A DNA stretch of 51,342 nucleotides from the NCBI GenBank assembly GCA_030655755.1, contig JAUSOQ010000060.1, positions 1 through 51,342 of the forward strand, written 5' to 3'. The position numbers and the translations under genes are program-made. Source of the stretch: Coriobacteriia bacterium (GTDB lineage Bacteria; Actinomycetota; Coriobacteriia; Anaerosomatales; Anaerosomataceae). Under the pieces are notes generated by a model. The model had not been told where the DNA came from. It saw only the letters and a list, made by a program, of their open reading frames with translations, and did not search any database. Positions 34,422 through 51,079 of this stretch are shown here, in pieces (the stretch's first letter is position 1; every line of letters starts with the position of its first letter).

Positions 34422-36362
34422 ATGAGCGACGACAAGACTGTGACCGACTTCTCCGAGGTGAGCATCGACCCGACAGCGGCCGAGATGCTCCAGATCGCCG
34501 AGGAGCGCGGGATCGAGACCGTGTTCTCCCGTGTCCGGGAGATCAAACCGTGCTCCACGGGAGCCACGAGCGGTTGCTGCAAGGTGTGCGCGATGGGCCC
34601 GTGCCGCGTGATCGGCAAGTATGAACGCGGCGTGTGCGGCGCCACCCGCGAGACGATCGCGGCCCGCAACTTCCTGCGCCAGGTGGCCGCCGGGGCCGCC
34701 GCTCACTCCGACCACGGCCGGGACGCAGCGCTTGCGCTCAAGGCGATCGCCGTCGGCGAGATCGAGGAAGGCACTATCGCCGATGAGATCAAGCTCGTTC
34801 GTGTGGCGGGCTACTTGGGCATCGATCCCACCGGCAAGGACGTCATGACGCTGGTCGGCGAAGTCGCCGATGCAGCGCTGGCGCAGTTCGGACAGCAGGC
34901 CGGAGAACTCGCCTACGTCGCTCGCGCGCCAAAGAAGCGTCAGGAGCTCTGGCGCAGCTGCGGCGTCATGCCGCGCGGCGTCGACCGCGAGATCGTCGAG
35001 TCCATGCACCGTACGCACGTAGGTACCGACCAGAACTACCATTCGTTACTCGACGGCGCTATCAAGTGCGCTCTCTCGGACGGATGGGGCGGCTCGATGC
35101 TCGCCACGGACCTGCAGGACATCCTCTACGGGACGCCGAAGGCGATCCGTTCCTCGGCGAATCTAGGGGTGCTCAGCGAGTCCAAGGTCAATGTGGTGGT
35201 ACACGGACACGAACCGCTTCTCGCATCGATGATCATCGATGCGACGCGCGAACCCGTGATGACGGAACTCGCCAAGTCGCTCGGCGCTGACGGCATCAAC
35301 GTCGTGGGCCTCTGCTGCACCGCGAACGAATCACTCATGCGCCAAGGCATAGCCCCGGCGGGCAACATGCTCCACCAGGAGCTCGCGGTGCTCACCGGCG
35401 CCGTGGAAGCGATGGTCGTCGACGTGCAGTGCATCTTCCAGGGGCTCGACGACGTGTCCTCGCACTTCCACACCATGTTCGTGACCACCTCGCCCAAAGC
35501 GGTGATCGGGAACAGCCTGCATATCGTGGTCGATGAACATCGACCACGAGAGGCTGCGCGCGAGATCGTGCGCCGCGCTATCGAGAACTTTCCAAACCGC
35601 AAGGACGTCCACATCCCGAACGTCTCCGAGCCACTCATCGCGGGCTTTAGTCACGAGTACATCCGCTACATGCTCGGCGGGAAGATGCGAGCGTCGCTGA
35701 ACCCCCTGAACGAGAACATCGTCAACGGCCGGATCCGCGGCGTCGCGGCCGTGGTGGGCTGCAGCAATGCGCGCTCGGTGCAGGACTTCGCCGTTGTCAA
35801 CATCGTGCGCGAACTCATCGCCAACAACGTGCTCGTTGTGGCGACAGGTTGCGCTGCCATCACTAGCGGCAAGCACGGCCTGCTCACTCCCGAGACCATG
35901 GAGTACGCGGGCGAAACGCTGCGCGAGGTCTGCGAGACGGTCGGCATCCCGCCGGTACTGCACGTGGGCTCATGCGTGGACAATTCGCGTATCCTCACCA
36001 TCCTCGCCGATGTCGTCGCCACCGGAGGCCTCGGCGACGACATCGCGGGACTACCGGCGGTGGCGCTCAGCCCCGAGTGGTTCTCGGAGAAGGCGCTCGA
36101 TATCGCGACGTACGTGGTGGGGAGCGGAGCGCACGTCATCTTCAGCGGCGTGGGCTCACCGGTCGCGAACTCTCCCATCGTCGAGGAGTACATGATCTCG
36201 GGCTGGACCGAGCGGTATGGGGGCAGCCTGCGCTTCATCAAGGAACCCCAGGACGCGGTCGTCGCGGCACTGGATCTGATCGACAACGCTCGCAAGGCGC
36301 TGAAGATCGACGTCCCGCAAGAGCGCGTGCTCTTCGACATGGATATGAGGAGGGAGCTGTAG
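34422..36362 (+). CDS. acsA: Carbon monoxide dehydrogenase, catalytic subunit (AcsA/CooS)
   Basis: A 646-residue anaerobic Ni-CODH. N-terminal B/D-cluster cysteines are 'PCSTGATSGCCKVCAMGPCRV...GVCGA'. C-cluster regions include 'HGHEPLLASMI', 'GLCCTANESLMRQG', 'VDVQCIFQGL', 'VVGCSNARSVQD', 'ATGCAAITSGKHGL' and 'HVGSCVDNSRI'. It reduces CO2 to CO, which passes to AcsB. The acsB GTG overlaps its stop by one base, as expected for a tight complex. Confidence 0.97.
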   Translation: MSDDKTVTDFSEVSIDPTAAEMLQIAEERGIETVFSRVREIKPCSTGATSGCCKVCAMGPCRVIGKYERGVCGATRETIAARNFLRQVAAGAAAHSDHGRDAALALKAIAVGEIEEGTIADEIKLVRVAGYLGIDPTGKDVMTLVGEVADAALAQFGQQAGELAYVARAPKKRQELWRSCGVMPRGVDREIVESMHRTHVGTDQNYHSLLDGAIKCALSDGWGGSMLATDLQDILYGTPKAIRSSANLGVLSESKVNVVVHGHEPLLASMIIDATREPVMTELAKSLGADGINVVGLCCTANESLMRQGIAPAGNMLHQELAVLTGAVEAMVVDVQCIFQGLDDVSSHFHTMFVTTSPKAVIGNSLHIVVDEHRPREAAREIVRRAIENFPNRKDVHIPNVSEPLIAGFSHEYIRYMLGGKMRASLNPLNENIVNGRIRGVAAVVGCSNARSVQDFAVVNIVRELIANNVLVVATGCAAITSGKHGLLTPETMEYAGETLREVCETVGIPPVLHVGSCVDNSRILTILADVVATGGLGDDIAGLPAVALSPEWFSEKALDIATYVVGSGAHVIFSGVGSPVANSPIVEEYMISGWTERYGGSLRFIKEPQDAVVAALDLIDNARKALKIDVPQERVLFDMDMRREL

Positions 36363-38545
36363 TGTCTAAAATCATCGCTTCCGCGGCGATTCGCGGTGCA
36401 CACAGTGTGTTCGCCAAGACCGAGGCCAAGCTTGCCCGCGCCAAGGAGAGCTTTGGCGCCGATGCCGCAATCGAACTGCCTAACACCGGCTACTACCTTC
36501 CGGTCATCTACGGCTTGACCGGCGAGAAGGTCGAGAAGCTCTCAGACATGGACGCGGTCCTCGCCTATGCGAGCGACCTTCTGCCCGAGGTCCCGAGCGA
36601 GAAGCTGTGGCTCCCCTACCTCGGCACGACGCTCGACGCGGGCATCGCCACGCTGCTCGCCGAGGAGTGCCACGAGGCGCTGAACTACCTCGACAACGAC
36701 CCGCCGCCCGTCACCGACCTGTGGCTCGGCGCGGCCGACGACGTCATCATGCGCGCGAGGGGCGTCGAATTCGTGGACGGCTCCGCGCCGGGATTCGCTG
36801 CGGTTGTGGGAGCCGCGCCCGACAACGAGACCGCCGTGCGCCTCGCCCGCGAGATGCAGGAGAAGATGCTCTACGTCTTCATGGCGGGTCACGATAACGG
36901 CGTCGCCTTCGGCGAGCAGCTCGATGCGGAGGGCATCCAGTTGGGCTGGGACACGCGCCTCGTCCCCTTTGGCCGCGAGGTCTACAGCCAGATCTACTCG
37001 ATCGGGTTCGCCACGCGCGCCGCGATGGCGTTCGGCGGCGTCCGGCCCGGCGACTACGAGCGCATCCTCGCCTACAACAAGAGCCGCATCTTCGCGTTCG
37101 TGCTCGCGCTGGGCGAGGTCACCGACGAGTGGTACGCCACCGCCGCCGGCGCCATCTCCTACGGTTTCCCGACCATCGCCACGAGCGGCATCCCGCAGAT
37201 CCTGCCCACCGGCGTGTGCACCTACGAGCACGTGGTCAGCAACATCAGCTGTGACGAGCTCGTGCAGCGGGCCATCGAGGTGCGCGGTCTAAAGATCAAG
37301 GTCCTCGACATACCGATCCCGGTCTCCTACGGGCCGGCGTTCGAGGGCGAACGCGTACGCAAAGAGGACATGTATGCCGAGGCCGGCGGACAGAAGACTG
37401 CTGCGTTCGAGTTCGTCCGCACGCTGGACGCCTCGGAGGTCACTGAAGGCAAGATCGAAGTGGTCGGTCCCGAGCTCGAGGAACTCGAACCCGGTGCGCT
37501 CGTGCCCCTCGGTATCGTGGTGGACGTATCCGGACGCAAGATGCAGTCCGACTTCGAGCCGGTCATCGAGAGGCAGCTCCACCATCTTGTCTGCTTCGCC
37601 GAAGGAGTCCTCCACATGGGTCAGCGTGACCTCTTGTGGCTTCGCGTCAGCAAGGCAGCCAGGAGCAAGGGCTTCAAGCTGGAGCACATCGGCGAGATTC
37701 TGCACGCCAAGCTCCTCGATGAGTTCGAGGCGATCATCGACAAGGTCCAGGTCACCATCTACACCGACGAGGCCAAGGTGCTCGAGATGCGTGAGACTGC
37801 GCGCAAGACCTACGCCAAGCGCGACGAGCGAATGGCCGGGCTGACCGACGAGACAGTGGACGTCTTCTACTCGTGCACGCTGTGTCAGAGCTTCGCGCCC
37901 ACGCACGTGTGCGTGGTCACCCCCGAGAGGATCGGCCTGTGTGGCGCCTATAACTGGCTCGATGCCAAGGCATCCAACGAACTCAACCCGACCGGCCACA
38001 ACCAGCCGATCGCCAAGGGCCTGGTCGTCGACGAACTGGCCGGCCAATGGTCCGGTGTCAACGAGTTCATCTCTGAGAAGTCCGGCGGGGCTGTGGAGAG
38101 AATGAGCTGCTACTCGCTGCTCACCGATCCCATGACGAGCTGCGGTTGCTTCATGGCCGTCATCGCGCTGCTGCCGATGTGTAACGGTGTGATGATCGTC
38201 AACCGCGAGTTCCAGGGCATGACGCCGTCGGGCATGAAGTTCTCGACGCTGGCCGGTGCGGTGGGCGGCGGTGTGCAGGTACCGGGGTTCATGGGCATCG
38301 GGAGAGGGTACATCGCGAGCAAGAAGTTCCTCTCCGCCGAGGGCGGTTTCGCCCGCGTCGTGTGGATGCCCAAGGACCTCAAGGAAGCGATGCGTTCCTT
38401 CCTCGCGCCCAGACTCGAAGAGATGGGCAAGCCCGATTTTCTCGAGATGGTGGCCGACGAGACGGTCGCCGAGACCGAAGAAGGCGTGCTCGAGTTCATC
38501 ACCAGCACCGGGCATCCAGCGCTTGCCATGGATCCACTGCTCTAG
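36362..38545 (+). CDS. acsB: Acetyl-CoA synthase (AcsB)
   Basis: A 727-residue CO dehydrogenase/acetyl-CoA synthase alpha subunit, close to the ~729 of Moorella. The A-cluster ligands are visible: Cys 505, 508, 517 and 527 in 'SCTLCQSFAPTHVC...GLC' and the Cys594-Gly-Cys596 motif in 'TSCGCFMA', one residue off the Moorella numbering. It joins CO, methyl and CoA. The GTG at 36362 has GGAGGG upstream. Longer reading frames that start upstream are inside acsA and are not used. The N-terminal CODH-contacting domain is present, so this is the bacterial type. Confidence 0.97.
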   Translation: MSKIIASAAIRGAHSVFAKTEAKLARAKESFGADAAIELPNTGYYLPVIYGLTGEKVEKLSDMDAVLAYASDLLPEVPSEKLWLPYLGTTLDAGIATLLAEECHEALNYLDNDPPPVTDLWLGAADDVIMRARGVEFVDGSAPGFAAVVGAAPDNETAVRLAREMQEKMLYVFMAGHDNGVAFGEQLDAEGIQLGWDTRLVPFGREVYSQIYSIGFATRAAMAFGGVRPGDYERILAYNKSRIFAFVLALGEVTDEWYATAAGAISYGFPTIATSGIPQILPTGVCTYEHVVSNISCDELVQRAIEVRGLKIKVLDIPIPVSYGPAFEGERVRKEDMYAEAGGQKTAAFEFVRTLDASEVTEGKIEVVGPELEELEPGALVPLGIVVDVSGRKMQSDFEPVIERQLHHLVCFAEGVLHMGQRDLLWLRVSKAARSKGFKLEHIGEILHAKLLDEFEAIIDKVQVTIYTDEAKVLEMRETARKTYAKRDERMAGLTDETVDVFYSCTLCQSFAPTHVCVVTPERIGLCGAYNWLDAKASNELNPTGHNQPIAKGLVVDELAGQWSGVNEFISEKSGGAVERMSCYSLLTDPMTSCGCFMAVIALLPMCNGVMIVNREFQGMTPSGMKFSTLAGAVGGGVQVPGFMGIGRGYIASKKFLSAEGGFARVVWMPKDLKEAMRSFLAPRLEEMGKPDFLEMVADETVAETEEGVLEFITSTGHPALAMDPLL

Positions 38546-38578
38546 ACCCAAAACCTGCTACCGAGGAGTGAGTACGAG

Positions 38579-39925
38579 ATGGCTCTGACCGGACTGGATA
38601 TCTTCAAACAGATGCCCAAGACCAACTGTGGAGACTGTGGCGTTCCTACATGTCTCGCCTTCGCGATGAAGCTCGCCCAGGGCGGTGCCGAACTCGAGCA
38701 GTGCCCGCACGTCTCAGAAGAGGCCAGGGCCGTCTTGGGCGAGGCCGCTACCCCGCCGATGCGGGGAGTCACTGTCGGCATGGGCGAGAACGCGTTCACG
38801 GTCGGCGAGGAGACCGTCCTGTTCCGTCACGACAAGACCTTCGTCAACCCCTGCGCGATCGGGGCGAGTGTCGACAGCGGCGCAGGCGATGCCGAACTCG
38901 ACGCGATGGCCGCCGCCGCCAAGGCCGCCGCCTTCGAGCGCGTTCAGCAACATCTCGCGTGCGGTTTCGTTGCCGTGCGCTCGACTGCCGACGCCGCGCG
39001 CTTCGCGCTTGCGGCCGCGCGAGTGGGCGAGGCGTCCGGCCTGCCGCTCGTGCTCGTGAGCGAAGATCCCGAGCACATGACGGCCGCACTCGACGCGGTC
39101 GGCACCGCGCATCCCCTCATCTGCGCCGCCACTGCGGACAACGCAGACGCGATGATCGCGCTCGCGCAGAAGCACTCGTGCCCGCTGGTCATACGCGCGG
39201 CCGGGCTTGCGGCGGTTTCGGAGCTTACCGAGAAGGCCGCAGCAGCCGGGCTCAAGGACCTCATCATCGACAGCTCTCCTGCCACGTCCGGCGTGGCCCT
39301 GCGCGACCAGGTCTTTGCCCGCCGCGCGGCGCTCAAGGGCAAGTTCGCCGCGCTCGGCTACCCCGTCATCGCTTTCCCCGGTGAGCTCGCGAAAGGCGAT
39401 GAGATGCTCGAAGCCGTTTTTGCGGCGGTCGGCGTGGCGAAGTACGCCAGCATCATCGTGCTCTCCGGGCCGGAAGCATGGCGCATGCTGCCATTGCTCG
39501 TGCTCAGGCAGAACATCTACACCGATCCGCAGCGCCCGATGCAGGCCGAGTCCAAGGTCTACGAAATCGGCGCGCCCGGGTCCGACTCCCCGTTCTTCAT
39601 CACAACGAACTTCTCACTCACGTACTTCATCGTCTCCTCCGAGATCGAGGCGTCCAAGATCTCGGCGCGTCTGGGTGTGGTCGATTCCGAGGGCCTGTCG
39701 GTGCTCACCGCATGGGCAGCCGGCAAGTTCGTTCCCGAGCGCATCGCCAAGTTCGTGCGCGATTCCGGCGTCGCCGAGGTCCTATCGCACCGCAACGTGA
39801 TCATCCCCGGTGCTGTCGCACAGATCTCGGGGGAGCTTGACGAGGAATTGGATGGTTGGAATGTCGTGGTCGGTCCCTATGAGGCCGCCGATATTCCCGC
39901 GTTCATGAAGGCACGCGCGGGATGA
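38579..39925 (+). CDS. acsC: Corrinoid/iron-sulfur protein large subunit (AcsC)
   Basis: A 448-residue subunit. The N-terminal [4Fe-4S] motif uses Cys 17, 20, 25 and 42 ('TNCGDCGVPTC...EQC'). A TIM barrel follows, with 'LIIDSSPATSGVALRDQ' and 'GYPVIAFPG'. The C-terminal corrinoid-binding domain has 'SDSPFFITTNFSLTYFIVSSEIE' and 'PGAVAQISGELDEEL'. It carries the methyl group on cobalt. A GAGGAG-like site precedes the ATG. Confidence 0.96.
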   Translation: MALTGLDIFKQMPKTNCGDCGVPTCLAFAMKLAQGGAELEQCPHVSEEARAVLGEAATPPMRGVTVGMGENAFTVGEETVLFRHDKTFVNPCAIGASVDSGAGDAELDAMAAAAKAAAFERVQQHLACGFVAVRSTADAARFALAAARVGEASGLPLVLVSEDPEHMTAALDAVGTAHPLICAATADNADAMIALAQKHSCPLVIRAAGLAAVSELTEKAAAAGLKDLIIDSSPATSGVALRDQVFARRAALKGKFAALGYPVIAFPGELAKGDEMLEAVFAAVGVAKYASIIVLSGPEAWRMLPLLVLRQNIYTDPQRPMQAESKVYEIGAPGSDSPFFITTNFSLTYFIVSSEIEASKISARLGVVDSEGLSVLTAWAAGKFVPERIAKFVRDSGVAEVLSHRNVIIPGAVAQISGELDEELDGWNVVVGPYEAADIPAFMKARAG

Positions 39926-39959
39926 CAGGAAAATCGTGATGGACAGCCTGGTGGTCTGA

Positions 39960-41951
39960 ATGCGACAGACGCAGGTAGCGCATAGAAGCGGCCTCCGGGA
40001 CGAACAGCAGCGGCTGTACGCGCCCTGCCGCGCGAGGTGTCCGGTTCACATCGACGTGCCGGGCTATCTCGCGGCCATCGGTGAGGGGCGCTTCACTGAC
40101 GCGCTTGAGATCGTTTTGGAGCGCTGCCCGCTGCCTTCGGTGTGCGGGCGCGTGTGCCTGCACCCATGCGAGGATGGTTGCCGACGCTGCCTGTTGGACG
40201 ATCCGATTGCGATTGCGCAGCTCAAGCGCGCTGCAGCCGACTTCGGCGTGTACCCGCGCCCCGAGCATCCCCGGCTACGCCCCGAGAAGATCGCGATCGT
40301 GGGCAGCGGGCCAACCGGCCTGACCGCCGCTCACGACCTCGCGAACCGGGGTTTCCAGGTCACACTCTACGAGGAGAAGCCTCTTCTCGGCGGAACGATG
40401 CGCTACGGCATCCCGAACTACCGGCTGCCAGACTACGCGCTCGACCGCGACATCGACTACATCCTGTCGGCAGGGATCGCGGTCAACACGGGTATCCGCG
40501 TAGGTCGTGATGTCATGCTTGACGAGCTCGCGGCGTCGCACAGGGCGGTGGTCATCACCGCTGGCCTGCAGGGCAGCCGCGCGCTGCCGATTCCCGGCGT
40601 CGATTCGCCGCGGGTGCTGACGGCCCTGCCGTTCCTCGAAGCCAGCTCGCGCGGCGAGGATGTCGATCTCGGCAACCGGGTTGTTGTCGTGGGCGGCGGT
40701 AACGTCGCGATGGACGTAGCGCGTACCGCACGCCGTCAGGGCGCATCCGACGTGCACGTGGTCTGCCTCGAGAGCAGCGACGAGATACCCGCCTCGCCTC
40801 AGGAGATCCACGATGCCGATATTGAGGGCATCACCCTCCACTACTCCTGGGGTCCACGGTCGATATCGCACGAGGCCGGGACCTGCGCGCTCAATACGGT
40901 GCGTTGCACGTCTGTCTTCAACGCCGAGAAGAGGTTCGCGCCTTCTTTCGACGAGTCGGTGGCGGAGTGTTTCGAGGCCGACACGATCATCTTCGCCATC
41001 GGGCAATCCGCCGATGTGGGTGATCTCGGCATCGCGCTCACGTCCCGCGGCGCACCCCAGATCGACCCTCTCACGCTCAAGACCTCGATCGGGAACGTCT
41101 ATGCCGCCGGCGATGTCGTGTCCGGGCCCACCAAGATCATCGACGCGATCGCCGCCGGCCACCAGGTGGCCGCAACCGCGTACCGTGACATTACGTGCGA
41201 CACCGAGCCGCTGCGGCTGCTCAATGAGGAGATCGATACTCTCGGTGAGGTACCCGACACGATGGCGAACAAGCTCGAGACCCGCCGGAGGATCCAGATG
41301 GAGCACCTCGAGTTCTTCGACGCGGTCAAGACGTTCGATGAGATCGAGGGGGGATACACCGAGTACGAGGCGGCGCGCGAGGCGCAGCGCTGCCTGTCCT
41401 GCACCACCGGCGCACGCCTGACGCGAGAGAAGTGCTCGTTGTGTTTGACATGCATTCGCGTGTGCCCACATGGAGCACCAATACTCAGTACCGACGGCTA
41501 CGTGTATTTCGATGCCGCGGCATGCAATGCGTGCGGCGCGTGTCAATCACAGTGCCCCTCGCAGGCGATCGTGCTCGAGGGCCATTCGGAGCAGGAGATG
41601 TCGCGGCGCGTGGAAAGACAGCTCTGGGCGGCGGAGATGGACACCGCTCTGATGTTCGCGTGCAGTTCGACGCCAATCGTGCCCAACCTGGGCGGTACTC
41701 CTCCTCGAATAATCACAGTCACCTGTCTGTTGCGCGTGAGCGAGCGAACGGTACTCGAAGCCCTACAGAACGGTGCGACTCGCGTCGTCTTCGCGGGATG
41801 TGTGGAGAGCACCTGCCGATTCCTACACGCACGCGAACTCGTGAGGCAGAGGTCCGGGCACATCGAGGTGCTCCTGTCGCGCATCGGCATGACCAACGCG
41901 TTCGACTTCGTCGAGCATAAAGCCGACGACCTCGATTGGCACCTGCGATGA
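39960..41951 (+). CDS. GltD/NfnB-like flavoprotein fused to 2[4Fe-4S] ferredoxin and MvhD-like domains
   Basis: A 663-residue fusion. Residues 20-80 form a GltD-type Fe-S domain (Cys 23, 27, 62, 66, 70, 74, 77). Residues 108-430 form the two-dinucleotide-binding flavoprotein (FAD loop 'GSGPTG' 115-120; NAD(P) loop 'GGGNVAMD' from 245; 'NVYAAGDVVSGP'). Residues 490-535 hold two [4Fe-4S] clusters (Cys 492, 495, 498, 502 and 522, 525, 528, 532). From 563 there is an MvhD-like domain with Cys 568, 589, 614 and 619, missing the second Cys of the usual CxxC. Its stop overlaps metV by four bases (ATGA). By position it probably feeds electrons to MetVF, replacing the HdrABC-MvhD set seen in Moorella. 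The substrate (NADH or NADPH) and any bifurcation are inference. Confidence 0.85.
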   Translation: MRQTQVAHRSGLRDEQQRLYAPCRARCPVHIDVPGYLAAIGEGRFTDALEIVLERCPLPSVCGRVCLHPCEDGCRRCLLDDPIAIAQLKRAAADFGVYPRPEHPRLRPEKIAIVGSGPTGLTAAHDLANRGFQVTLYEEKPLLGGTMRYGIPNYRLPDYALDRDIDYILSAGIAVNTGIRVGRDVMLDELAASHRAVVITAGLQGSRALPIPGVDSPRVLTALPFLEASSRGEDVDLGNRVVVVGGGNVAMDVARTARRQGASDVHVVCLESSDEIPASPQEIHDADIEGITLHYSWGPRSISHEAGTCALNTVRCTSVFNAEKRFAPSFDESVAECFEADTIIFAIGQSADVGDLGIALTSRGAPQIDPLTLKTSIGNVYAAGDVVSGPTKIIDAIAAGHQVAATAYRDITCDTEPLRLLNEEIDTLGEVPDTMANKLETRRRIQMEHLEFFDAVKTFDEIEGGYTEYEAAREAQRCLSCTTGARLTREKCSLCLTCIRVCPHGAPILSTDGYVYFDAAACNACGACQSQCPSQAIVLEGHSEQEMSRRVERQLWAAEMDTALMFACSSTPIVPNLGGTPPRIITVTCLLRVSERTVLEALQNGATRVVFAGCVESTCRFLHARELVRQRSGHIEVLLSRIGMTNAFDFVEHKADDLDWHLR

Positions 41952-42601
41952 TCGTCGTGCGACAGAAGCCGGTCGACGAGATCTGCGCCTTTGTCACGCG
42001 CCATCGTCGTGTGCTGCTGGTGGGGTGCAACACCTGTGCCGCCGTCGCCCTTGCGGGCGGCGAGAAGGAGGTCGACTTGATGGCCGAGCTCCTGCGGCTC
42101 GCCACATCCCGCAAGGCATCCTTTGTCGAGTTCTCCGGCACCGTGCTCACGCGCCAGTGCGAGCCGGAGTTCCTCGAACAGCTCGACAGCGAAGGCTACG
42201 ACGCAATCCTCTCCATGGCATGCGGCGCCGGTGTGGCGCTGCTCGCCTCCTCGGTCGACGTGCCGGTCTATCCGGCGCTCGACACGTTGTTCATCGGCGC
42301 GGCGCAGGGGCTGGCGAGTTGGGAGGCGGAGTGCTCGGCGTGCGGACAGTGCGTCCTCGGTCGAACCGCCGGCATCTGCCCGATCACCCGCTGTGCGAAA
42401 GGCATCCTGAACGGCCCGTGCGGTGGCATGTCCGACGGTCGATGCGAGCTCGGCGACCGTGACTGCGCGTGGGTGCTCATTTTCCAGCGGCTCGAGAAGT
42501 TCGGCCGGAGCGAGGAGTTCTTGGAGATAGCCGAGCCCAAGGACCATTCCCTGCGCACCAGACTGGTGACCTGGGACGCGCACGAGGACGGCATACGATG
42601 A
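41948..42601 (+). CDS. metV: Methylenetetrahydrofolate reductase, Fe-S subunit MetV
   Basis: A 217-residue MTHFR_C-type protein. N-terminal 'VLLVGCNTCAAVALAGGEKEVDLM' and 'CGAGVALLA' precede a C-terminal Cys-rich block, 'CSACGQCVLGRTAGICPITRCAKGILNGPCGG', followed by 'CELGDRDCAW'. MetV binds Fe-S/zinc and passes electrons to MetF. The ATG at 41948 overlaps the fusion gene's stop, and its own stop overlaps metF (ATGA), so the three proteins are probably made in equal amounts. Confidence 0.92.
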   Translation: MIVVRQKPVDEICAFVTRHRRVLLVGCNTCAAVALAGGEKEVDLMAELLRLATSRKASFVEFSGTVLTRQCEPEFLEQLDSEGYDAILSMACGAGVALLASSVDVPVYPALDTLFIGAAQGLASWEAECSACGQCVLGRTAGICPITRCAKGILNGPCGGMSDGRCELGDRDCAWVLIFQRLEKFGRSEEFLEIAEPKDHSLRTRLVTWDAHEDGIR

Positions 42602-43479
42602 GCCTGCGAGAAGCGCTCGAGAGCGGCCGCTTCGCGGTCACATCGGAAGTCGGACCTCCCAAGGGGACGGATGTCTCACAGATGCTCGACACTGCCGAGA
42701 AGCTTCGCGGTCACGTCGACGCGCTCAACGTCACCGACAACCAGGCGGCGGTGATGCGCCTGTGCACGCTGGCCGCGTGCGTTCATCTCGCCCAGAAGGG
42801 TCATGAGCCGGTGTTGCAGGTCACATGCAGGGACCGCAACCGTCTGAGTATCCAGTCGGATCTCCTCGGCGCTGCGTCTTTTGGCATCACGAACGTGCTC
42901 GCGCTCACGGGCGACCATGTCATCATGGGCGATCACCCGCAGGCGAAAGCCGTGTTCGACTTGGAGTCGGTGCAGTTGCTCGAAGTGGTGGGCGCGCTGA
43001 ACAACGGCACGGACATGGCCGGCAATGACCTTTCCGGCACGCCGGAGTTCTTTGTCGGCGCCGTAGTCACACCCGACGCGCATCCGATCGAACCGCAGTT
43101 GGCGAAGTTCGAGAAGAAGGTGCGCGCAGGCGCGAACTACTTCCAGACCCAGGCGGTCTACGACTCCGAGTCGTTCCTGGGTTTCATGGAGACCGCTCGC
43201 TCATTCGACGCCAAGGTGCTTGCGGGAATCGTGGTACTACGCTCGGCCGGTATGGCCCGCTTCATGAACAAGAACATTCCGGGTATCACCGTTCCCGACG
43301 CGATCATTGCTGAACTCGCGTCCGCCCAAGACCCGGTGGCCGTCGGCATCGAGATCGCCGTGCGCTTCATCAACGACGTCCGGGACAGTTGCGACGGCGT
43401 GCACATCATGGCCGTCGGTGCTGAGCATCTGGTCCCGCGTGTGCTCGACGCTGCGGGGCTTTGGGAGGTGCCATCGTGA
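42598..43479 (+). CDS. metF: Methylenetetrahydrofolate reductase MetF
   Basis: A 293-residue flavin-binding TIM barrel. Signatures are 'FAVTSEVGPPKGTD', 'NVTDNQAAVMRL', 'QVTCRDRNRLSIQSDLLGA', 'NVLALTGDH' and 'ANYFQTQAVYD'. It reduces methylene-THF to methyl-THF. Short MetF proteins that come with MetV do not take electrons from NADH alone. The ATG overlaps the metV stop, and its stop overlaps the second cooC by four bases. Confidence 0.95.
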   Translation: MSLREALESGRFAVTSEVGPPKGTDVSQMLDTAEKLRGHVDALNVTDNQAAVMRLCTLAACVHLAQKGHEPVLQVTCRDRNRLSIQSDLLGAASFGITNVLALTGDHVIMGDHPQAKAVFDLESVQLLEVVGALNNGTDMAGNDLSGTPEFFVGAVVTPDAHPIEPQLAKFEKKVRAGANYFQTQAVYDSESFLGFMETARSFDAKVLAGIVVLRSAGMARFMNKNIPGITVPDAIIAELASAQDPVAVGIEIAVRFINDVRDSCDGVHIMAVGAEHLVPRVLDAAGLWEVPS

Positions 43480-44255
43480 AGATCGCGATTTCGGGCAAGG
43501 GAGGTGTTGGCAAGACGACGCTTGCCGCCGGGCTGGCGAGACTCTATGCTGAGAAAGGCCAACGCGTTATCGCCATCGATGCCGATCCTGATGCCAACCT
43601 CGCCGTCGCGCTAGGCGCGACGGTGGAGCAGGCGGTCGGCTGCACACCACTATCGCAGATGGATGATCTTATCGAGGAGCGCACGGGCGCACGCCCGGGG
43701 CGCGGCGGGATGTTCCGCCTCAACCCGGACGTCTCCGACGTCGTGGATCGCTGCGCGATGAAGGTCGGCGGCGTCACACTCTTACGCATGGGTACCGTCG
43801 AGCGCGGCGGGTCGGGCTGCATGTGCTCCGAAGGCACGTTCCTCAAGGCGTTCATGAGCCACCTGCTCATCGAGCGCGACGAGGTGGCTATTCTGGATAT
43901 GGAAGCGGGCATCGAACACCTCGGGAGGGGTACTGCCGAGAACGTCGACATCTTCGTCGTTGTCGTGGAGCCGACCGCCCGCAGCGTACAGACCGCACGC
44001 GCGGTACGCGAACTCGCCACCGACATCGGGGTGGTGCGTGTCGTGGCGGTGGGCAACAAGGTGCGCGACGTGTCCGACGAAGCGTTCCTGCGCGATTCCC
44101 TGGGCGAGGTACCGCTTGTCGGCACGATACCCGAGAGCGAGGCTGTCAGGAGCGCGGACCGCGGCGGCCGTTCGCCCTACGGAACCGACCAGGTCTTCAC
44201 CAATGCGCTGGAGCGGATCGCCAAAGCGCTGGAGCAAGAAGCCGACGCTTCATAG
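43476..44255 (+). CDS. Second CooC/AcsF-type nickel-insertion ATPase
   Basis: A 259-residue MinD-like ATPase. It has 'GKGGVGKTTLAAGLARLYAEKG', 'IDADPDANLAVALG', and a CxC motif at Cys 115/117 in 'GGSGCMCSEGTFLKAFMSHLL'. The 'NPDVSDVVDRCAM' middle differs from the cooC at 31760. It is of the AcsF/CooC2 kind that matures CODH or the A-cluster of AcsB. The GTG at 43476 has GGGAGG upstream. Confidence 0.92.
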   Translation: MKIAISGKGGVGKTTLAAGLARLYAEKGQRVIAIDADPDANLAVALGATVEQAVGCTPLSQMDDLIEERTGARPGRGGMFRLNPDVSDVVDRCAMKVGGVTLLRMGTVERGGSGCMCSEGTFLKAFMSHLLIERDEVAILDMEAGIEHLGRGTAENVDIFVVVVEPTARSVQTARAVRELATDIGVVRVVAVGNKVRDVSDEAFLRDSLGEVPLVGTIPESEAVRSADRGGRSPYGTDQVFTNALERIAKALEQEADAS

Positions 44256-44270
44256 ACGAGGAGGATCACG

Positions 44271-45095
44271 ATGCTGGTCATCGGCGAGAAGATCAATGTG
44301 ATGAGCAAGACCATCGGCCCGGCGATGAAGGAACACGACCCCGGCCCCCTTCGCGACATGGCGCTCCGACAGATCGAAGGCGGAGCGGACGTGCTCGAGG
44401 TCAACCTCGGTCCCGCGACCAAGGGCGGGCCCGAGATGATGGAGTGGGTCGTGCGCACCATACAAGAGGTGGCGCCGGGAACGCGCCTTTGCCTGGACAC
44501 GATGAACCCGGACGCGATGCGCGCGGGATTGGCGTTGTGCGAACTGCAGCCGATCATCAATTCGACATCTGCCGAGCGCGCCCGCCTGGAGACGTTTCTA
44601 CCGCTAGCTAAGGAGTTCGATGCCGAGTTCATCGGGCTTGCGATGACCGAGGCCGGGGTGAGCCGCGACGCGAACGAGCGCCTCATGGCTGCCACCGAGC
44701 TCATGAGCGCGATGATCGAGTTCGACGTGCCGCTCGACCGCGTCTATCTCGACCCGCTTCTGTTGCCTATCAGCGTGGCGCAACACCAGGCAGGCGAAGC
44801 GCTCGAAGCAGTCGCGATGTTCAAGCAGCTCAATGACCCGCCGCTCAAGACGGTCGTCGGTCTGTCCAACATCTACAACGGCTGCCCCGAGCACGTGAAG
44901 GCACCGCTGGCCGCCGCATTCCTGACCTTGCTTATCCACGCCGGTCTCGACGCGGCGATCATGGATCCGAACGACGAACTGCAGATGGCGGTCGTGCGCG
45001 CCGACGGCGCGACGCTTCTCGGCACCGACGCCATTGAAAAGTCGATCGCAATCCTGAAGAATGAGACCCTTTACTGCAATTCGTATCTGGACTGA
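44271..45095 (+). CDS. acsE: Methyltetrahydrofolate:corrinoid/iron-sulfur protein methyltransferase
   Basis: A 274-residue pterin-binding TIM barrel. It shows 'VIGEKINVMSKTIGPAM', 'GADVLEVNLGPATKGGPEMMEWVV', 'CLDTMNPDAMRAGL', 'IINSTSAE' and 'GLSNIYNGCPEH'. It moves the methyl group from methyl-THF to AcsC cobalt. GGAGG precedes the ATG. It is the last enzyme gene before the formate dehydrogenase module. Confidence 0.97.
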   Translation: MLVIGEKINVMSKTIGPAMKEHDPGPLRDMALRQIEGGADVLEVNLGPATKGGPEMMEWVVRTIQEVAPGTRLCLDTMNPDAMRAGLALCELQPIINSTSAERARLETFLPLAKEFDAEFIGLAMTEAGVSRDANERLMAATELMSAMIEFDVPLDRVYLDPLLLPISVAQHQAGEALEAVAMFKQLNDPPLKTVVGLSNIYNGCPEHVKAPLAAAFLTLLIHAGLDAAIMDPNDELQMAVVRADGATLLGTDAIEKSIAILKNETLYCNSYLD

Positions 45096-45110
45096 CACAC
45101 CCTCGATCGG

Positions 45111-45683
45111 ATGGACCTGGCAGAAGTGACGGATCAGTGCACATGCGGCGACGCGCACACCACCTCGAAGGTCGACCTGACCCCTATCGAGCCGGTGCTT
45201 GAGCGATATGCCGACGACCCTGGCGGGCTCATACCGGTTCTTCAGGAGACGCAGAAGCTCTACGGTTACCTGCCCAAGGAAGCACTCCGCGCGATTGCCG
45301 GGGTGCGCTGCATACCGTTCTCGAGCGTGTACGGCGTGGCTACATTCTATTCGCAGTTCCACCTTCGGCAGCGCGGCGACAAGGTCGTCCGAGTCTGCCA
45401 CGGCACCGCTTGTCACGTCCTAGGCGCGCCCGAGGTCACCCGCGCCGTCGTCGAGGAGCTCGGCATAAAGATCGGCGAGACCACCGAGGACCTCGCCTTC
45501 ACGCTCGAGTCGGTGGCGTGCGTAGGCTGTTGCGGCCTCGCGCCGGTGATGCTCGTGGATGGCCAGACGTATGGGCAGCTCGACATCGTCGAGGCCCGCC
45601 GCATCGCTGCCACGCTCCGTGAGGAAGTGGCCGCCGAGCGCGGCGCGGCATCGTCGCTCGCCAACGAAGGCGACCCGGCATGA
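45111..45683 (+). CDS. NuoE-like [2Fe-2S] diaphorase subunit of formate dehydrogenase (HylA-type)
   Basis: A 190-residue thioredoxin-fold ferredoxin. The [2Fe-2S] ligands are Cys 96, 101, 137 and 141 ('VCHGTACHVLG', 'ACVGCCG'), after 'LIPVLQETQKLYGYLPKEAL' and 'VYGVATFYSQFHL'. It matches the 24-kDa subunit of complex I and its hydrogenase and formate dehydrogenase relatives. The N-terminal ~20 residues with 'CTCGDAH' are an extra tail. It overlaps the NuoF-like gene by four bases. The ribosome site at the ATG is weak. Confidence 0.92.
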   Translation: MDLAEVTDQCTCGDAHTTSKVDLTPIEPVLERYADDPGGLIPVLQETQKLYGYLPKEALRAIAGVRCIPFSSVYGVATFYSQFHLRQRGDKVVRVCHGTACHVLGAPEVTRAVVEELGIKIGETTEDLAFTLESVACVGCCGLAPVMLVDGQTYGQLDIVEARRIAATLREEVAAERGAASSLANEGDPA

Positions 45684-47488
45684 CACCGCACGCTCCCACC
45701 CAGGGCTCGACGATCATCCGCGTGTGCACTGGTTCCGGCTGTGCCATGAACGGCTCGCTGGAGGTCGCGGATGCTTTCGAGGCCGCGATCGCCCAGGCGG
45801 GCGCCAACGACTCGGTGCGCGTGGTGCGCACGGGCTGTCACGGCATGTGCGGAAGTGGCCCGATCGTCACCGTGGCGCCGGACGGCGTCTTCTACCCCAA
45901 GGTCACGCTCGACCGCGTCACACGCATCGTCGAGCGCCTCGTGGCCGACGGTGGATACGTGAGCGAGTTCCTCTTCCGTCCAGCCGAGGACGCGGAGCCC
46001 ATCGTCCACTACGCGGATGTGCCCTTCAACGCGGCGCAGCGGCGCATCGTGTTGCGGCGGTGTGGCGTCGTGGATCCGGAAGACATCGATGACGCCCTCG
46101 CGCTGGGCGCGTACGACGGCCTGCGCAAGGCGCTCGAGACGCTGGATCCCGACAGCCTCATCGAACAGGTCAAAGCGTCGGGACTGCGAGGGCGTGGCGG
46201 CGCGGGTTTCCTGACCGGGCAGAAGTGGCGCTTCACGCGCGATGCGTCGGGTGAGGTCAAGTACGTCATCTGCAACGCCGACGAGGGCGATCCGGGAGCG
46301 TTCATGGACCGCAGCGTCATCGAGAGCGATCCGCATAGCGTGCTCGAGGGCATGGCGATCGCGGCTTATGCGATCGGTGCGCACGAGGGCTACGTCTACG
46401 TTCGCGCCGAATACCCCCTTGCGGTGAAACGCCTCCGCATAGCCATCGCTCAAGCCGAGGAAAAGGGGTTCCTGGGCGAGGATATCCTGGGCAGCGGTTT
46501 CTGCTTTGAGGTGAAGGTCAGGGAAGGCGCGGGCGCGTTCGTATGCGGCGAAGAGACCGCACTCATAGCCTCGATCGAAGGTAAGCGTGGCATGCCCAAG
46601 GTGCGTCCTCCGTTTCCGGCCACATCCGGGTTGTGGGGCAAGCCCACATGCATCAACAACGTCGAGACGCTCGCGAACATCGCCTGGATCGTCGTTGAAG
46701 GTGCCGAAGCGTACGCGAGCATCGGGACCGGCGACAGCAAGGGCACGAAGGTCTTCGCGCTCACCGGCAAGGTGCGCTACAGCGGCCTGGTCGAGGTGCC
46801 CATGGGTATGACCGTGCGCGATCTCGTGTACGGTATCGGTGGAGGCTGCGCCGAGGGGCGCGACTGCAAGGCCGTGCAGATCGGCGGGCCGTCGGGAGGC
46901 TGCCTGCCTTTCGAACTCCTGGACACACTCATCGAGTACGAAGCACTTACGGAAGTCGGTGCGATCGTCGGCTCCGGCGGTATGGTCGTCGTCGACCATG
47001 AGACCTGCATGGTGGACTTCGCCCGCTACTTCCTCACCTTCACGCAGGAGGAGTCGTGCGGGAAGTGCATACCGTGCCGCATCGGGACCAAGCGCATGCT
47101 CGAGATCGTCACGCGCATTACCGAGGGTGAAGGCCAAGAGGGCGATATCGAGAAGCTCGAGAAGCTTGCACGTGACGTCAAGAACGCATCGCTGTGCGGC
47201 CTGGGTCAGACGGCACCGAATCCCATGCTCACGACCATCCATTACTTCCGGGAGGAGTATGAGGAGCATATCCGCAGTAGGTACTGCCGCGCAGGTGCGT
47301 GCACGGCGCTTTCGCACTACGTGATAGATGCCGGACTTTGCAAGGGTTGCGCCGTGTGCAAGAAGCACTGCCCCGTGGGAGCGATCTGGGGCGAACTCAA
47401 ACAGCCGCACACGATCAGCGCCGAACGGTGCATCAAGTGCGGCGCGTGCGTGGAGCATTGCCCGTTCAACGCAATCAAGCGCGTTTAG
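45680..47488 (+). CDS. NuoF-like NADH-binding flavoprotein subunit (HylB-type)
   Basis: A 602-residue subunit. Residues 10-100 form a [2Fe-2S] thioredoxin-like domain (Cys 16, 21, 53, 57). The FMN/NADH domain follows, with 'GRGGAGFLTGQKWRF' and 'CNADEGDPGAFMDRSVIESDPH', then SLBB and the N3-type cluster 'ESCGKCIPCRIGT...CGLGQ'. The C-terminus has two [4Fe-4S] motifs, 'CKGCAVCKKHCPVGAI' and 'CIKCGACVEHCPFNAI'. This layout is that of HydB/HylB in NAD- and ferredoxin-linked (bifurcating) enzymes. With the NuoE-like protein and FdhA it would link formate to NAD and ferredoxin. Confidence 0.94.
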   Translation: MTPHAPTQGSTIIRVCTGSGCAMNGSLEVADAFEAAIAQAGANDSVRVVRTGCHGMCGSGPIVTVAPDGVFYPKVTLDRVTRIVERLVADGGYVSEFLFRPAEDAEPIVHYADVPFNAAQRRIVLRRCGVVDPEDIDDALALGAYDGLRKALETLDPDSLIEQVKASGLRGRGGAGFLTGQKWRFTRDASGEVKYVICNADEGDPGAFMDRSVIESDPHSVLEGMAIAAYAIGAHEGYVYVRAEYPLAVKRLRIAIAQAEEKGFLGEDILGSGFCFEVKVREGAGAFVCGEETALIASIEGKRGMPKVRPPFPATSGLWGKPTCINNVETLANIAWIVVEGAEAYASIGTGDSKGTKVFALTGKVRYSGLVEVPMGMTVRDLVYGIGGGCAEGRDCKAVQIGGPSGGCLPFELLDTLIEYEALTEVGAIVGSGGMVVVDHETCMVDFARYFLTFTQEESCGKCIPCRIGTKRMLEIVTRITEGEGQEGDIEKLEKLARDVKNASLCGLGQTAPNPMLTTIHYFREEYEEHIRSRYCRAGACTALSHYVIDAGLCKGCAVCKKHCPVGAIWGELKQPHTISAERCIKCGACVEHCPFNAIKRV

Positions 47489-47546
47489 AGACGACGAACG
47501 CCACGTTCGGGCACACTACCAGGCTGTGGGAGAAAGGGACATTGCC

Positions 47547-47972
47547 ATGAAGGTCAAGGACATCATGACCGTCCGGGTGGTATCGGTGCCGCGCAACGCC
47601 ACTGTGACCGAAGCGGCCCGCAAGATGCGTGACGAACAAGTCGGCTCGGTGCTCGTGGTCGAGAACGACCAGCTCGTGGGCATCCTTACCGACCGTCAGA
47701 TCACGCACTCCGTGATCGCCGACGGCCAGGATCCGAGAGTCGTTGTGGTTGGCGACGTCATGCATGAGGAGTTCGTGCCGCTCGAGCCCGATATGGACAT
47801 TATGCAAGCGATGCGCCTCCAGCGCGAGCTCGCAATGCGCCGCCTGCCGGTCGTCGAGAACGGCAAACCGGTAGGGATCGTGTCGGTCTCGGACATCTCG
47901 GCGTTCGTGCGGGAGGCCGTCGACACGATTCTCATGGAAGGCACCGTCCGCGTCCGTCGCAGGGATACCTGA
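47547..47972 (+). CDS. Two-CBS-domain protein
   Basis: A 141-residue protein made of a CBS pair: 'KVKDIMTVRVVSVPRNATVTEAARKM...VGILTDRQIT' and 'VGDVMHEEFVPLEPDMDIMQAMRL...GIVSVSDISAFV'. Such pairs bind AMP, ATP or other adenosyl ligands, including NADH or SAM, and act as energy sensors. It sits between the diaphorase-like and catalytic subunits of formate dehydrogenase, with 18 bases before fdhA, so it may tune that enzyme. A function is not shown. Confidence 0.9.
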   Translation: MKVKDIMTVRVVSVPRNATVTEAARKMRDEQVGSVLVVENDQLVGILTDRQITHSVIADGQDPRVVVVGDVMHEEFVPLEPDMDIMQAMRLQRELAMRRLPVVENGKPVGIVSVSDISAFVREAVDTILMEGTVRVRRRDT

Positions 47973-47989
47973 CGCCGAGGAGATCCGCA

Positions 47990-50707
47990 GTGACCCAGGC
48001 ACCGGCACAGATCATCACACTCACGATCGACGGTCTCCCGCTCGAGGCGCGGGCCGGTCAGACCGTGCTCGAGGTCTGCCGCGAGAACGGCATCCAGATC
48101 CCGACTCTGTGCCACGACCCGCGGCTGGAGCCCTACGGCGCATGCCGCCTGTGCATCGTGCAGATCGAAGGCGTGCGCGGCTTTCCCACTTCGTGTACGA
48201 CCAGGGTCGCCGAAGGCATGTCGGTGACGACCAACAGCCCCGAGATCGCCGATCTGCGCCGTTCCATCGTCGAGCTGCTGCTCTCCGATCACGAGCTCCG
48301 CTGTCTGTCGTGCGACTCGGCAGGCGCGTGCGCGCTGCAGGACATCGCGTACGAGTTCGGCATCGAAGAGTCGCCCTACACAGGCGAGCGGCACCGCGTA
48401 CGGGAAGGTCAGGACGACAACGATCTCATCGAACGTGACTACAGCAAGTGCATCTTGTGCGGCCGGTGCGTGCGCATCTGCCACGAGGTGCAGGGATGTG
48501 ATGTCGTCGGCTATACCGATCGCGGATTCGAGGCCATTCCGAACACGCCGTACGCGTTGTCTCTCGAGGCTGCTGGATGCGAGTTCTGCGGCCAGTGCGT
48601 TTCGACGTGCCCGGTGGGCGCGCTCACTGACAAGCCCAGCCGGTATCAAGGCCGCGTATGGGAGACCACTCGCGTGGAGTCCATCTGCGGCTACTGCGGT
48701 GTCGGTTGTACGGTCGAGTACCACGTCAAGGACGGTCGGATCATCAGCACCGGAGCCCCAATCGGTCGAGGCGTCAACGGCGGGAACCTCTGCGCGAAGG
48801 GCCGTTACGGCTGGAGCTTCACGCACAGCCCGGATCGGCTCACCGCTCCTCTCGTGCGCCGTGACGGCAAGCTCGTGGAGGTCACCTGGGACGAGGCCGT
48901 CCGCGTGGTGGCGGACAACCTCGCGCGCATCCGCGACGAACACGGACCGGGCGCGGTCGGTGGACTGGCTAGCGCCAAGTGCACCAACGAGGAGAACTAC
49001 TTGTTCCAGAAGCTGCTGCGGACAGCCATCGGCACACACAACATCGACCATTGCGCCCGTCTTTGACACAGCTCCACGGTGGCCGGTCTGGCCGCCTCCT
49101 TCGGAAGCGGAGCGATGACGAACTCGGTAGCCGACCTCGGTCAGGCCGACGTGATCCTGGTAATCGGCTCGAACACGACCGAGGCGCACCCGATCGTGGG
49201 CATCGAGCTGAAGCGCGCGGCGCTCCGCGGCACGCGAATCGTCGTGGTCGACCCTCGACGCATCAAGCTCGTCGATCACGCTAAGGACTGGCTGCGCATC
49301 CAGCCCGGCACGAACGTCGCGCTGTTCAACGCCATGGCACGCGTTATCGTCGAAGAGGGACTCATCGACGAAGCGTTCGTGTCCGAGCGTACCGAGGGCT
49401 TCGAGGCACTGCGCGACCACGTGCTTCGCGTCGATCTCGACGAGGCGGCTCGCATCACCGGCATCCCTGTGGTGAAGATCCGCGAGGTCGCGCGCGCGTA
49501 CGCCTCGGCGGAACGTGCCTCGATCGTCTACTGCATGGGCGTCACGCAGTTCGCGACCGGCACGGCGCAGGTGCGCACACTCGCCAACCTTGCAATGCTC
49601 ACCGGACAGATCGGACGTCCGGGCACGGGAGTCAACCCGCTGCGCGGCCAGAGCAACGTGCAAGGTGCCTGCGACCTCGGCTGCCTTCCCGACTGCCTCC
49701 CCGGCTACCAGAGCGTGTCGGACCGAGACACGCTCGACCGCTTCTGCGACTTCTGGGGGAGCGAGCGCGAGCTGCCCGCCGAGGCGGGGCTCACGCTCGT
49801 CGAGATGATCCATGCGGCCGCACGCGGCGAGCTGAAGGCGCTCTACGTCATGGGCGAGAACCCGGTGCTCTCCGACCCCGACCAGGCGCACGTCATCGAA
49901 GCGCTCGAGAACCTCGACTTCTTCGTGGTCCAGGACATCTTCCTCACCGAGACCGCCAAGCTTGCCGACGTCGTGCTCCCAGCCGCGACATTCCTCGAGA
50001 AGGACGGCACCTACACCAGCACAGACCGCCGGGTGCAGCTCGGCCGAAAGGTCGTCGACGCGCCGGGCGAGGCGAAGACTGACCTCGAGATCGTCACACT
50101 CGTCGCGAATGCGATGGGGCTCGGTTGGGACGAGGACAGCCCCCGCGACGTCATGGTCGAGATGGGCGCCGTCACACCGCAGTACGGCGGCATCACCTAC
50201 AGCCGCCTCGAGGCGGAGGGCGGACTACAGTGGCCGTGTCCCGACGCCTCGCACCCCGGCACTCCGATCCTCCACGTCGACGGCTTCCCGCGCGGTCGCG
50301 CTGCGTTCGCCGTGGCGGACCACACGCCGCCAGCGGAGCTGCCCGATGTGGAGTTCCCAATGGTCCTCTTGACCGGACGCCACCTGTGGAACTTCCACAC
50401 CAACACGATGACGGGCCGCAGTGTCGGGCTCGCTGAACTCAACGCCGCCGGCTACGTTGAGATCTCGCCCAAGGACGCCGAGTCGCTGTGTCTGTGCGAG
50501 GGGGACCGGGTCGAGGTGGCCAGCAGGCGTGGCGCGTGCGTCGCGAACGTGCGCATCACTCCAGGGCTCGAACCCGGCGTGGTGTTCATGCCGTTCCACT
50601 TCGCCGACGCCCCGGCCAACCGCCTCACCAGCGGTGCCGCACTCGACCCGGACTCGAAGATGCCCGGCCTCAAGACCACGCCGGTGCGAATCTCGCGCAT
50701 CGTCTGA
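47990..50707 (+). CDS. fdhA: Selenocysteine-containing formate dehydrogenase catalytic subunit
   Basis: A 905-residue protein read through an in-frame TGA at 49064-49066 as selenocysteine (residue 359). The context is 'NIDHCARL-U-HSSTVAGLAAS', the FDH active site, and the frame continues without change to the TGA at 50707. The N-terminus has a NuoG-like [2Fe-2S] (Cys 41, 52, 55, 69), a His-Cys3 cluster ('HELRCLSCDSAGAC') and two [4Fe-4S] ('CILCGRCVRIC', 'CEFCGQCVSTCP'). Next come the Mo/W-bis-MGD domain ('CGYCGVGC'), and the C-terminal MGD-binding domain near 'TGRHLWNFHTNTMTGRS'. It reduces CO2 to formate. The GTG start has AGGAG upstream. Gene callers will split it at the TGA. Confidence 0.95.
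49064..49096 (+). promoter_or_regulatory. Bacterial SECIS element with the UGA (Sec) codon
   Basis: The UGA at 49064-49066 is followed by a seven-pair stem, GGTGGCC (49078-49084) with GGCCGCC (49090-49096; one G-U pair). It closes the five-base loop GGTCT (49085-49089). The loop begins 18 bases after the UGA. The E. coli fdhF element has the same GGUCU loop at the same distance. The loop binds SelB, which delivers Sec-tRNA. Confidence 0.9.
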
Positions 50708-50709
50708 GC

Positions 50710-50810
50710 CGGGCGCACGCCCGACGATGCCGAAGTGAAGGCCAGGAGAGCTGGCGGCGGCAGGGGGGCCGAAACACAGAACCGGACAAACCCCGCAGGG
50801 CTGTCCGGTT
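50710..50810 (+). other. Two hairpins after fdhA, no uridine tract
   Basis: CGGGCG-CA-CGCCCG (50710-50723) starts two bases after the fdhA stop. AACCGGACA/TGTCCGGTT (50780-50810) forms a nine-pair stem with an inner CCC/GGG. Neither is followed by a T-run on either strand. They may stop transcription or protect the mRNA end. The second could be the end of a mobile element, since a transposase remnant begins 15 bases later. Confidence 0.45.
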
Positions 50811-50824
50811 CATGAGCGTTCGTA

Positions 50825-51079
50825 CGACTCCACGTCGTCGTGGACAACTACGCCACCCACAAGCACGCCGACGTCAGGAAGTGGCTGGCCAGGAACTCGC
50901 GGGTGCACCTGCACTTCACCCCGACCTCGGGCAGCTGGATGAACCTCGCCAAGGTGTTCTTCGGGATCATCACGCGACAAGCCATCCGTCGCGACACCTT
51001 CCCGAGCGTCGCCGACCTCATCGCCGCGATCCGGCGCTTCATCGACGCCTGGAACGAACGCTATGAACCTTTCGCCCGC
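50825..51079 (+). pseudogene. IS630-family transposase remnant
   Basis: About 85 codons match the C-terminal half of IS630-family DDE transposases: 'LHVVVDNYATHKHADVRKWLA', 'VHLHFTPTSGSWMNLAKVFF', 'ITRQAIRRDTF' and 'AAIRRFIDAWNERYEPF'. Upstream is a stop in the same frame (50813-50815) and no N-terminal half. Downstream the family ending is lost after 'EPFAR'. The second catalytic Asp is kept (VVDNY), but the catalytic Glu expected in 'NxxE' is Lys ('NLAK'). It is therefore a truncated, inactive fragment. Confidence 0.8.

Follow-up and report, generated by a model that had tools for sequence, protein, structure and literature searches.

The ATP yield of acetogenesis is set by the reductant that is used for methylene-tetrahydrofolate (methylene-THF), and which reductant this is has been an open question. 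The contig JAUSOQ010000060.1 of a Coriobacteriia bacterium (GenBank assembly GCA_030655755.1), which was analyzed over its whole length of 51,342 nt (the window), raises this question for one particular locus. A gene for a 663 aa protein is encoded there immediately upstream of metV and metF, and the protein joins a GltD-like module, a ferredoxin domain and an MvhD/FlpD-like domain (the fusion). As judged from sequence and gene order, the fusion is probably the NADH-oxidizing electron-input subunit of a non-bifurcating fusion-MetV-MetF methylene-THF reductase. An earlier note on this DNA had proposed a single polypeptide as electron input to MetVF, and this proposal is now well supported by a gene adjacency that is conserved across many families.

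Domain architecture and coupling with metV and metF

The fusion, its domains and the two downstream genes are located as follows:
39960..41951, plus strand: GltD-like/2xFer4/MvhD(FlpD)-like fusion, 663 aa (open reading frame, Pfam and NCBIfam profiles, orthologues in alignment A1)
40020..40244, plus strand: Fer4_20, the GltD N-terminal Fe-S region (Pfam; C23, C27, C66, C70 and C74 invariant)
40287..41159, plus strand: FAD/NAD(P)H-binding module (Pyr_redox_2), NAD motif GGGNVAMD...VVCLESSDEIPA at residues 245-278, with CLES replacing the YRR of NADPH enzymes
41421..41570, plus strand: 2x[4Fe-4S] ferredoxin domain (C492/495/498/502 and C522/525/528/532)
41622..41897, plus strand: MvhD/FlpD-like domain (C568, C589, C614 and C619; second Cys of CxxC absent)
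41948..42601, plus strand: metV (ATGA overlap with the fusion; PF12225, 1.6e-33)
42598..43479, plus strand: metF (ATGA overlap with metV; PF02219, 3.4e-39)

The open reading frame and a Pfam domain search verified the composite protein described in the earlier note. Fer4_20 (residues 21-95, 2e-19), Pyr_redox_2 (residues 110-400, 2e-28), the Fer4 pairs (residues ~488-537) and FlpD (residues 583-646, 4.6e-12) all scored above the curated cut-offs, while the top NCBIfam model, PRK12771, stayed below its own. A NuoG part was not found by the Pfam search; the ferredoxin and FlpD domains are present instead.

In the GltD part, the cysteines 23, 27, 66, 70, 74, 478 and 481 as well as Lys 89 are all invariant in A1, and K89 aligns with the cluster ligand K170 of StnC. 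In NfnB and GltD an RCLxC-like motif stands ahead of the Cys pair. The fusion has retained an RCLxC motif at residues 477-481 (C478-L-S-C481), and because of this resemblance it may complete a second [4Fe-4S] cluster. As the cysteines of the GltD part and Lys 89 have been kept without exception in A1, one or two [4Fe-4S] clusters are likely in this part in addition to the two of the ferredoxin domain. The count of two clusters given earlier thus holds for the ferredoxin pair and appears too low for the whole protein.

The stop codon of the fusion (TGA, 41949-41951) overlaps the ATG of metV at 41948, and the stop codon of metV (42599-42601) overlaps the ATG of metF at 42598, so that both ATGA overlaps noticed before were confirmed. 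Start/stop overlaps link, in series, the fusion to metV, metV to metF and metF to the gene behind it. Four types of methylene-THF reductases have been listed, i.e., MetF, MetVF, RnfC2-MetVF and HdrCBA-MvhD-MetVF (PMC8760232). The adjoining PF12225 metV and PF02219 metF place the enzyme of the window with the MetVF-type reductases (types II-IV). Its MetF scored only 83 bits with TIGR00676, the model of NAD(P)H-type MetF, which is far under the cut-off of 294 bits. As MetF is not of the NAD(P)H type, MetVF needs a partner, as has been argued (PMC8760232).

Conservation of the link to metV

A search of 149 relatives revealed a full-length orthologue in 14 other genomes of the same order (46-70% identity). 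Domains and gene order were kept in all 14: metV lies directly 3' of the fusion (with a -4 bp overlap in 11 cases), and acsC lies directly 5' of it, at a distance of at most 35 bp or overlapping. For the phylum, 396 genomes were drawn, and 32 genomes outside the order that contain fusions or pieces thereof were examined. In 28 of them the contig covers the side that faces metV, which makes them testable; the other four stop at the contig edge. It was found that metV is next to the fusion in 28 of the 28, at distances from -22 to +440 bp. One of these is L166, in which the FlpD part has a gene of its own, placed between metV and the gene for GltD plus ferredoxin. As a control, FlpD-less GltD-like paralogues of the order were used, and metV was beside none of the 15 (within the DNA seen, up to about 1.4 kb downstream). 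Chance adjacency was rejected based on this contrast (42/42 versus 0/15), and the link between fusion and metV is without exception in this sample of the phylum. A contig scan with A1 yielded, among the matches listed, mostly FlpD-less GltD-like proteins and was not used for counts.

Nucleotide-binding motif and structure models

An acidic residue after the second strand of a Rossmann fold is a usual mark of NADH preference. The acidic CLE is found at this place in 23 of 25 fusions, while RR is found in five aligned PDB relatives. On the sequence level, the fusion of the window thus carries an NADH-type motif (CLES, not RR).

The top structure matches of the GltD-like module were the GltD parts of NfnABC and StnABC (Z 44-41). 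In the model of the full-length fusion, residues 423-541 had a predicted local distance difference test score (pLDDT) below 50, and thus no cluster geometry was taken from it. A separate model of the MvhD domain predicted an MvhD-like fold for this end (pLDDT 89), and only four PDB matches were obtained at E <0.001, all of them MvhD-type chains (Foldseek, including 5odc_D, 8rvu_F and 7bkb_F). In the genome search the fusion reached 48 bits with the FlpD profile (cut-off 22.3). Five conserved cysteines are typical of MvhD/FlpD. That one usual Cys is missing had been noted previously and was confirmed; it is the second one of the N-terminal Cys-x2-Cys. The site reads FACSST, whereas L052 has CRYC and L166 has CQYC. 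Cys 568, 589, 614 and 619 have been retained and are invariant across the order, and these four could suffice for one [2Fe-2S] cluster.

Fusions in other phyla

Among 350 Chloroflexota-side genomes, three intact fusions and one broken fusion (L053) were detected, and the addition of L052 and L209 brought the number to six. Four of the six are beside metV (L053, L180, L181 and L209). L053 had at first been read as a FlpD-less GltD-like match beside metVF, and its FlpD end was then found downstream in a shifted frame, for which reason the gene is regarded as broken or mis-sequenced. The 398 Bacillota-side genomes contained 16 fusions, five of which are arranged in the order acsE-fusion-metV-metF.

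Several results weigh against the fusion being the NADH input for MetVF. The NADPH-type motif YRR is present in two fusions (L039, L150). Within the DNA seen, two of the six Chloroflexota fusions and 11 of the 16 Bacillota fusions are not beside metVF. The earlier note had named homologues lying mostly away from metVF as a refutation of its proposal; this is not the case in the phylum (42/42 adjacent), but it is the case in Bacillota. As copies from both groups lie elsewhere, the fusion module is not exclusive to MetVF and can serve other partners. In addition, at the Chloroflexota locus L180:1-5037 the GltD-ferredoxin-FlpD fusion and metV are grouped with mvhD and with one HdrA-like and one HdrC-like gene, and therefore the fusion may, in some lineages, belong to a larger type IV complex as one of its components.

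The Bacillota fusions away from metVF (L211-L215, L218, L220, L221 and L224-L226) have the same domain order, and several have a DNA-primase-like gene downstream. A tree of the GltD modules did not yield a single origin for the fusions. At least four label changes are forced by well-supported branches, the exact number being unsure given the rooting and the small outgroup. Therefore, the arrangement recurs or was exchanged.

The surrounding gene cluster and the genome

The neighbouring genes in the window are:
28087-29781, plus strand: fhs
34422..36362, plus strand: acsA (CO dehydrogenase)
36362..38545, plus strand: acsB (acetyl-CoA synthase)
38579..39925, plus strand: acsC (corrinoid protein large subunit), the conserved upstream neighbour, assigned by sequence and gene order
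43476..44255, plus strand: cooC-like ATPase, its start overlapping the metF stop
44271..45095, plus strand: acsE methyltransferase
45111..47488, plus strand: nuoE- and nuoF-like genes (HydBC-type NADH module); next come a CBS gene and, from 47990, a formate dehydrogenase gene

The order on the plus strand is fhs, a RACo-type corrinoid-protein activator, a CooC-like ATPase, folD, acsA, acsB, acsC, fusion, metV, metF, the second CooC-like gene, acsE, nuoE, nuoF, the CBS-domain gene and formate dehydrogenase. The fusion thus lies within a complete Wood-Ljungdahl cluster. The nuoEF genes are located five genes downstream of it, and the formate dehydrogenase there has its own NuoG-like N-terminus. 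An in-frame TGA at 49064-49066 of the formate dehydrogenase gene (context HCARL-TGA-HS) is probably a selenocysteine codon. Within its own family, the source genome is the only one in which the Wood-Ljungdahl cluster (window 34422-51000) was seen (AcsB in 0/26 other members); other families of the order have the cluster, pointing to loss or transfer.

No HdrA-like or CCG (HdrB) gene was seen in the window cluster, HdrA not having been searched for directly. RnfC2 was not found beside metVF, and the sole RnfC_N match in this genome belongs to the Rnf operon of contig C41. Neither the window nor the clusters of the order showed an NfnA partner gene next to the fusion.

A profile search revealed that the fusion holds the only FlpD domain of the genome. 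Matches to CCG (HdrB) were confined to contigs C36 and C45, with an HdrBC-like fusion gene on C45. The previous suggestion that one protein replaces the HdrABC-MvhD set agrees with this sole FlpD domain; the HdrBC-like gene lies elsewhere in the genome. A second metV-metF pair is located by a methionine-synthase-like (MetH-like) gene on contig C68 and lacks a redox partner of the fusion kind. This pair (L036:1720-6094) is preceded by a small ferredoxin-like gene and the MetH-like gene, and it probably serves methionine synthesis.

The Rnf operon directly follows a bidirectional-type [NiFe] hydrogenase, and a second [NiFe] hydrogenase is accompanied by a cytochrome-b-like gene. A [NiFe] hydrogenase large subunit gene (G000:C36:16729-18231; L173:8619-10214) has one in-frame TGA near its C-terminal end, and the enzyme is possibly a [NiFeSe] hydrogenase. 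Complex I is present, and its NuoI carries a further GltD module. This NuoI-GltD fusion (L037:6175-8343, G000 contig C19) occupies the nuoI position of the nuo operon, where it apparently allows NAD(P)H to feed complex I. GltD-like homologues comparable in length and identity are found in most genomes of the order, and in Chloroflexota L196 a GltD-like gene is located between nuo genes.

Proposed electron path and alternative explanations

A possible electron path follows from the anatomy of the fusion. NADH would reduce the FAD of the GltD-like module, and single electrons would pass the [4Fe-4S] clusters of the GltD part, the 2x[4Fe-4S] ferredoxin part and then the MvhD-like [2Fe-2S] cluster. 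From there they would reach the [4Fe-4S] clusters of MetV and then the flavin of MetF, which would reduce methylene-THF to methyl-THF. The fusion would do the job of RnfC2 in Acetobacterium (type III), and it would stand in for HdrA-HdrBC-MvhD of Moorella (type IV). Energy would be conserved elsewhere, most simply by Rnf.

It is doubtful that the fusion is instead a subunit of a larger complex, formed with the downstream NuoEF-like proteins and formate dehydrogenase or with the HdrBC-like fusion, which would link formate or a membrane donor to MetVF. The genes nuoE-nuoF-CBS-fdh follow acsE in the cluster, an HdrBC-like gene is present on C45, and L180 groups the fusion with Hdr-like genes, mvhD and metV. 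However, NuoEF and the formate dehydrogenase with its NuoG-like N-terminus would make up a complete NAD-dependent formate dehydrogenase, by analogy with known HydBC-type enzymes. Furthermore, only acsC, metV and metF are seen around the fusion in many other genomes of the phylum, and the HdrBC-like gene is outside the cluster. An arrangement in favour of the larger complex comes from a deltaproteobacterial contig (L062:3-5575), on which nuoE, a gene for a 1065-aa NuoF-GltD fusion, metV and metF are in a row; this is a Stn-like candidate electron input to MetVF in its own right.

It is likewise unlikely that fusion-MetVF bifurcates, with NADH reducing methylene-THF plus ferredoxin or another low-potential carrier. 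The step from NADH (-320 mV) to methylene-THF (-200 mV) leaves spare energy, bifurcation would raise the ATP yield (PMC8760232), and type IV reductases have been proposed to bifurcate. NfnB, which has the same fold, bifurcates, and Arg155 of the fusion, equivalent to R201 of NfnB and R239 of StnC, is invariant. But as the non-bifurcating StnC has this residue too, Arg155 does not decide on bifurcation and was rejected as a sign of it. The fusion is devoid of an NfnA, HdrA or HydBC-type bifurcating module, and no bifurcation occurs in the type III enzyme, which depends on NADH (PMC8760232). Bifurcation is thus the less likely mode, and the hint at it in the earlier note was not supported: an HdrA module is absent, and the FAD of StnC, the closest functionally dissected module, is non-bifurcating. 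A minimal enzyme in which fusion-MetV-MetF splits the electrons of NADH to methylene-THF and ferredoxin with no Hdr subunit seems quite unlikely. Reversal of the same complex in vivo, in which NAD+ would take up the electrons of methyl-THF while acetate or other methyl donors are oxidized, is improbable because NAD+ reduction by methyl-THF is uphill (-200 versus -320 mV), although acetate oxidizers also use Wood-Ljungdahl clusters and Thermacetogenium runs related metVF genes both ways (PMC6895022), and it would leave the mechanism of the complex unchanged.

Taken together, a non-bifurcating NADH input to MetVF is the preferred reading. This compact, widespread and genetically coupled NADH module is a direct candidate answer to the question of the reductant in those Wood-Ljungdahl lineages of the phylum that carry the fusion, and the three-gene system is small enough for expression and assay.

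Comparison with known systems

For MetVF alone, electrons were donated by ferredoxin in vitro, and for Clostridium ljungdahlii on H2/CO2 the ATP yield modelled on this basis was negative (PMC8760232). The type III enzyme of Acetobacterium woodii (RnfC2-MetV-MetF; PMC8760232) resembles the proposed system in that one NADH-oxidizing Fe-S partner is encoded beside metVF, NADH is the donor and the organism has Rnf; Rnf combined with a methylene-THF reductase that uses NADH without bifurcation corresponds to the A. woodii layout. However, the partner there is RnfC-like with a MetV-like domain, whereas it is GltD-ferredoxin-MvhD here.

The type IV enzymes (HdrABC-MvhD-MetVF) of Moorella thermoacetica and Sporomusa ovata (PMC8760232, PMC9430772) share MvhD with the fusion and, in Moorella, also a GltD domain, which is contained in HdrA (PMC9430772), the NADH-oxidizing subunit (PMC8760232). 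In the window MvhD occurs in the cluster only as a fused domain, genes for HdrA, HdrB and HdrC were not seen in the metVF cluster (with the above limit for HdrA), the HdrA flavin module is absent, and GltD and MvhD are on a single 663-aa chain. GltD-containing genes of HdrA length are near metVF in L085, L064 and L092.

The GltD module of StnC/NfnABC (PDB 8oh5, 9bov, 9n5u) is the best match in fold and sequence (35-39% identity, Z 41-44), and its K170 and R239 correspond to K89 and R155. In StnC, K170 ligates the first cluster and the FAD is non-bifurcating (PMC10482914). Yet the motif of that module is the NADPH-type YRR, and StnC is fused to NuoG-like parts and works with a separate bifurcating NuoEF-like module. 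The fusion has neither the NuoG-like domain with NuoE/NuoF partners of StnABC nor, in the window and the order clusters, the NfnA that is encoded with the GltD-like NfnB in NfnAB. The MvhD of HdrABC-MvhAGD and related complexes (PDB 5odc, 8rvu, 7bkb) has the same fold and three C-terminal cysteines that align, but here the domain is fused to an NADH module and the N-terminal CxxC lacks its second Cys. In archaeal type III HdrA an inserted GltD has been proposed to use NADH (PMC12054007), and it is likewise the presumed NADH input to a redox complex; it is, however, located within HdrA, which has a partner other than MetVF.

A figure legend lists gltD among genes of the CO dehydrogenase/acetyl-CoA synthase neighbourhood of Actinobacteria, without further comment in that place (PMC7325909). 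A GltD-ferredoxin-MvhD fusion with MetVF was not found described in the literature searched, the coverage of which is incomplete for the phylum, so that priority is unsure. The claim of a new electron input thus stands for the arrangement, which is apparently undescribed, and needs a qualifier since a GltD module in the NADH-oxidizing HdrA of the Moorella type IV reductase has been published (PMC9430772). The fusion-metV-metF cluster is real and conserved, a combination of known parts that is apparently undescribed, and next to the four listed types it would probably represent a fifth one, in which MetVF receives the electrons of NADH through a single protein.

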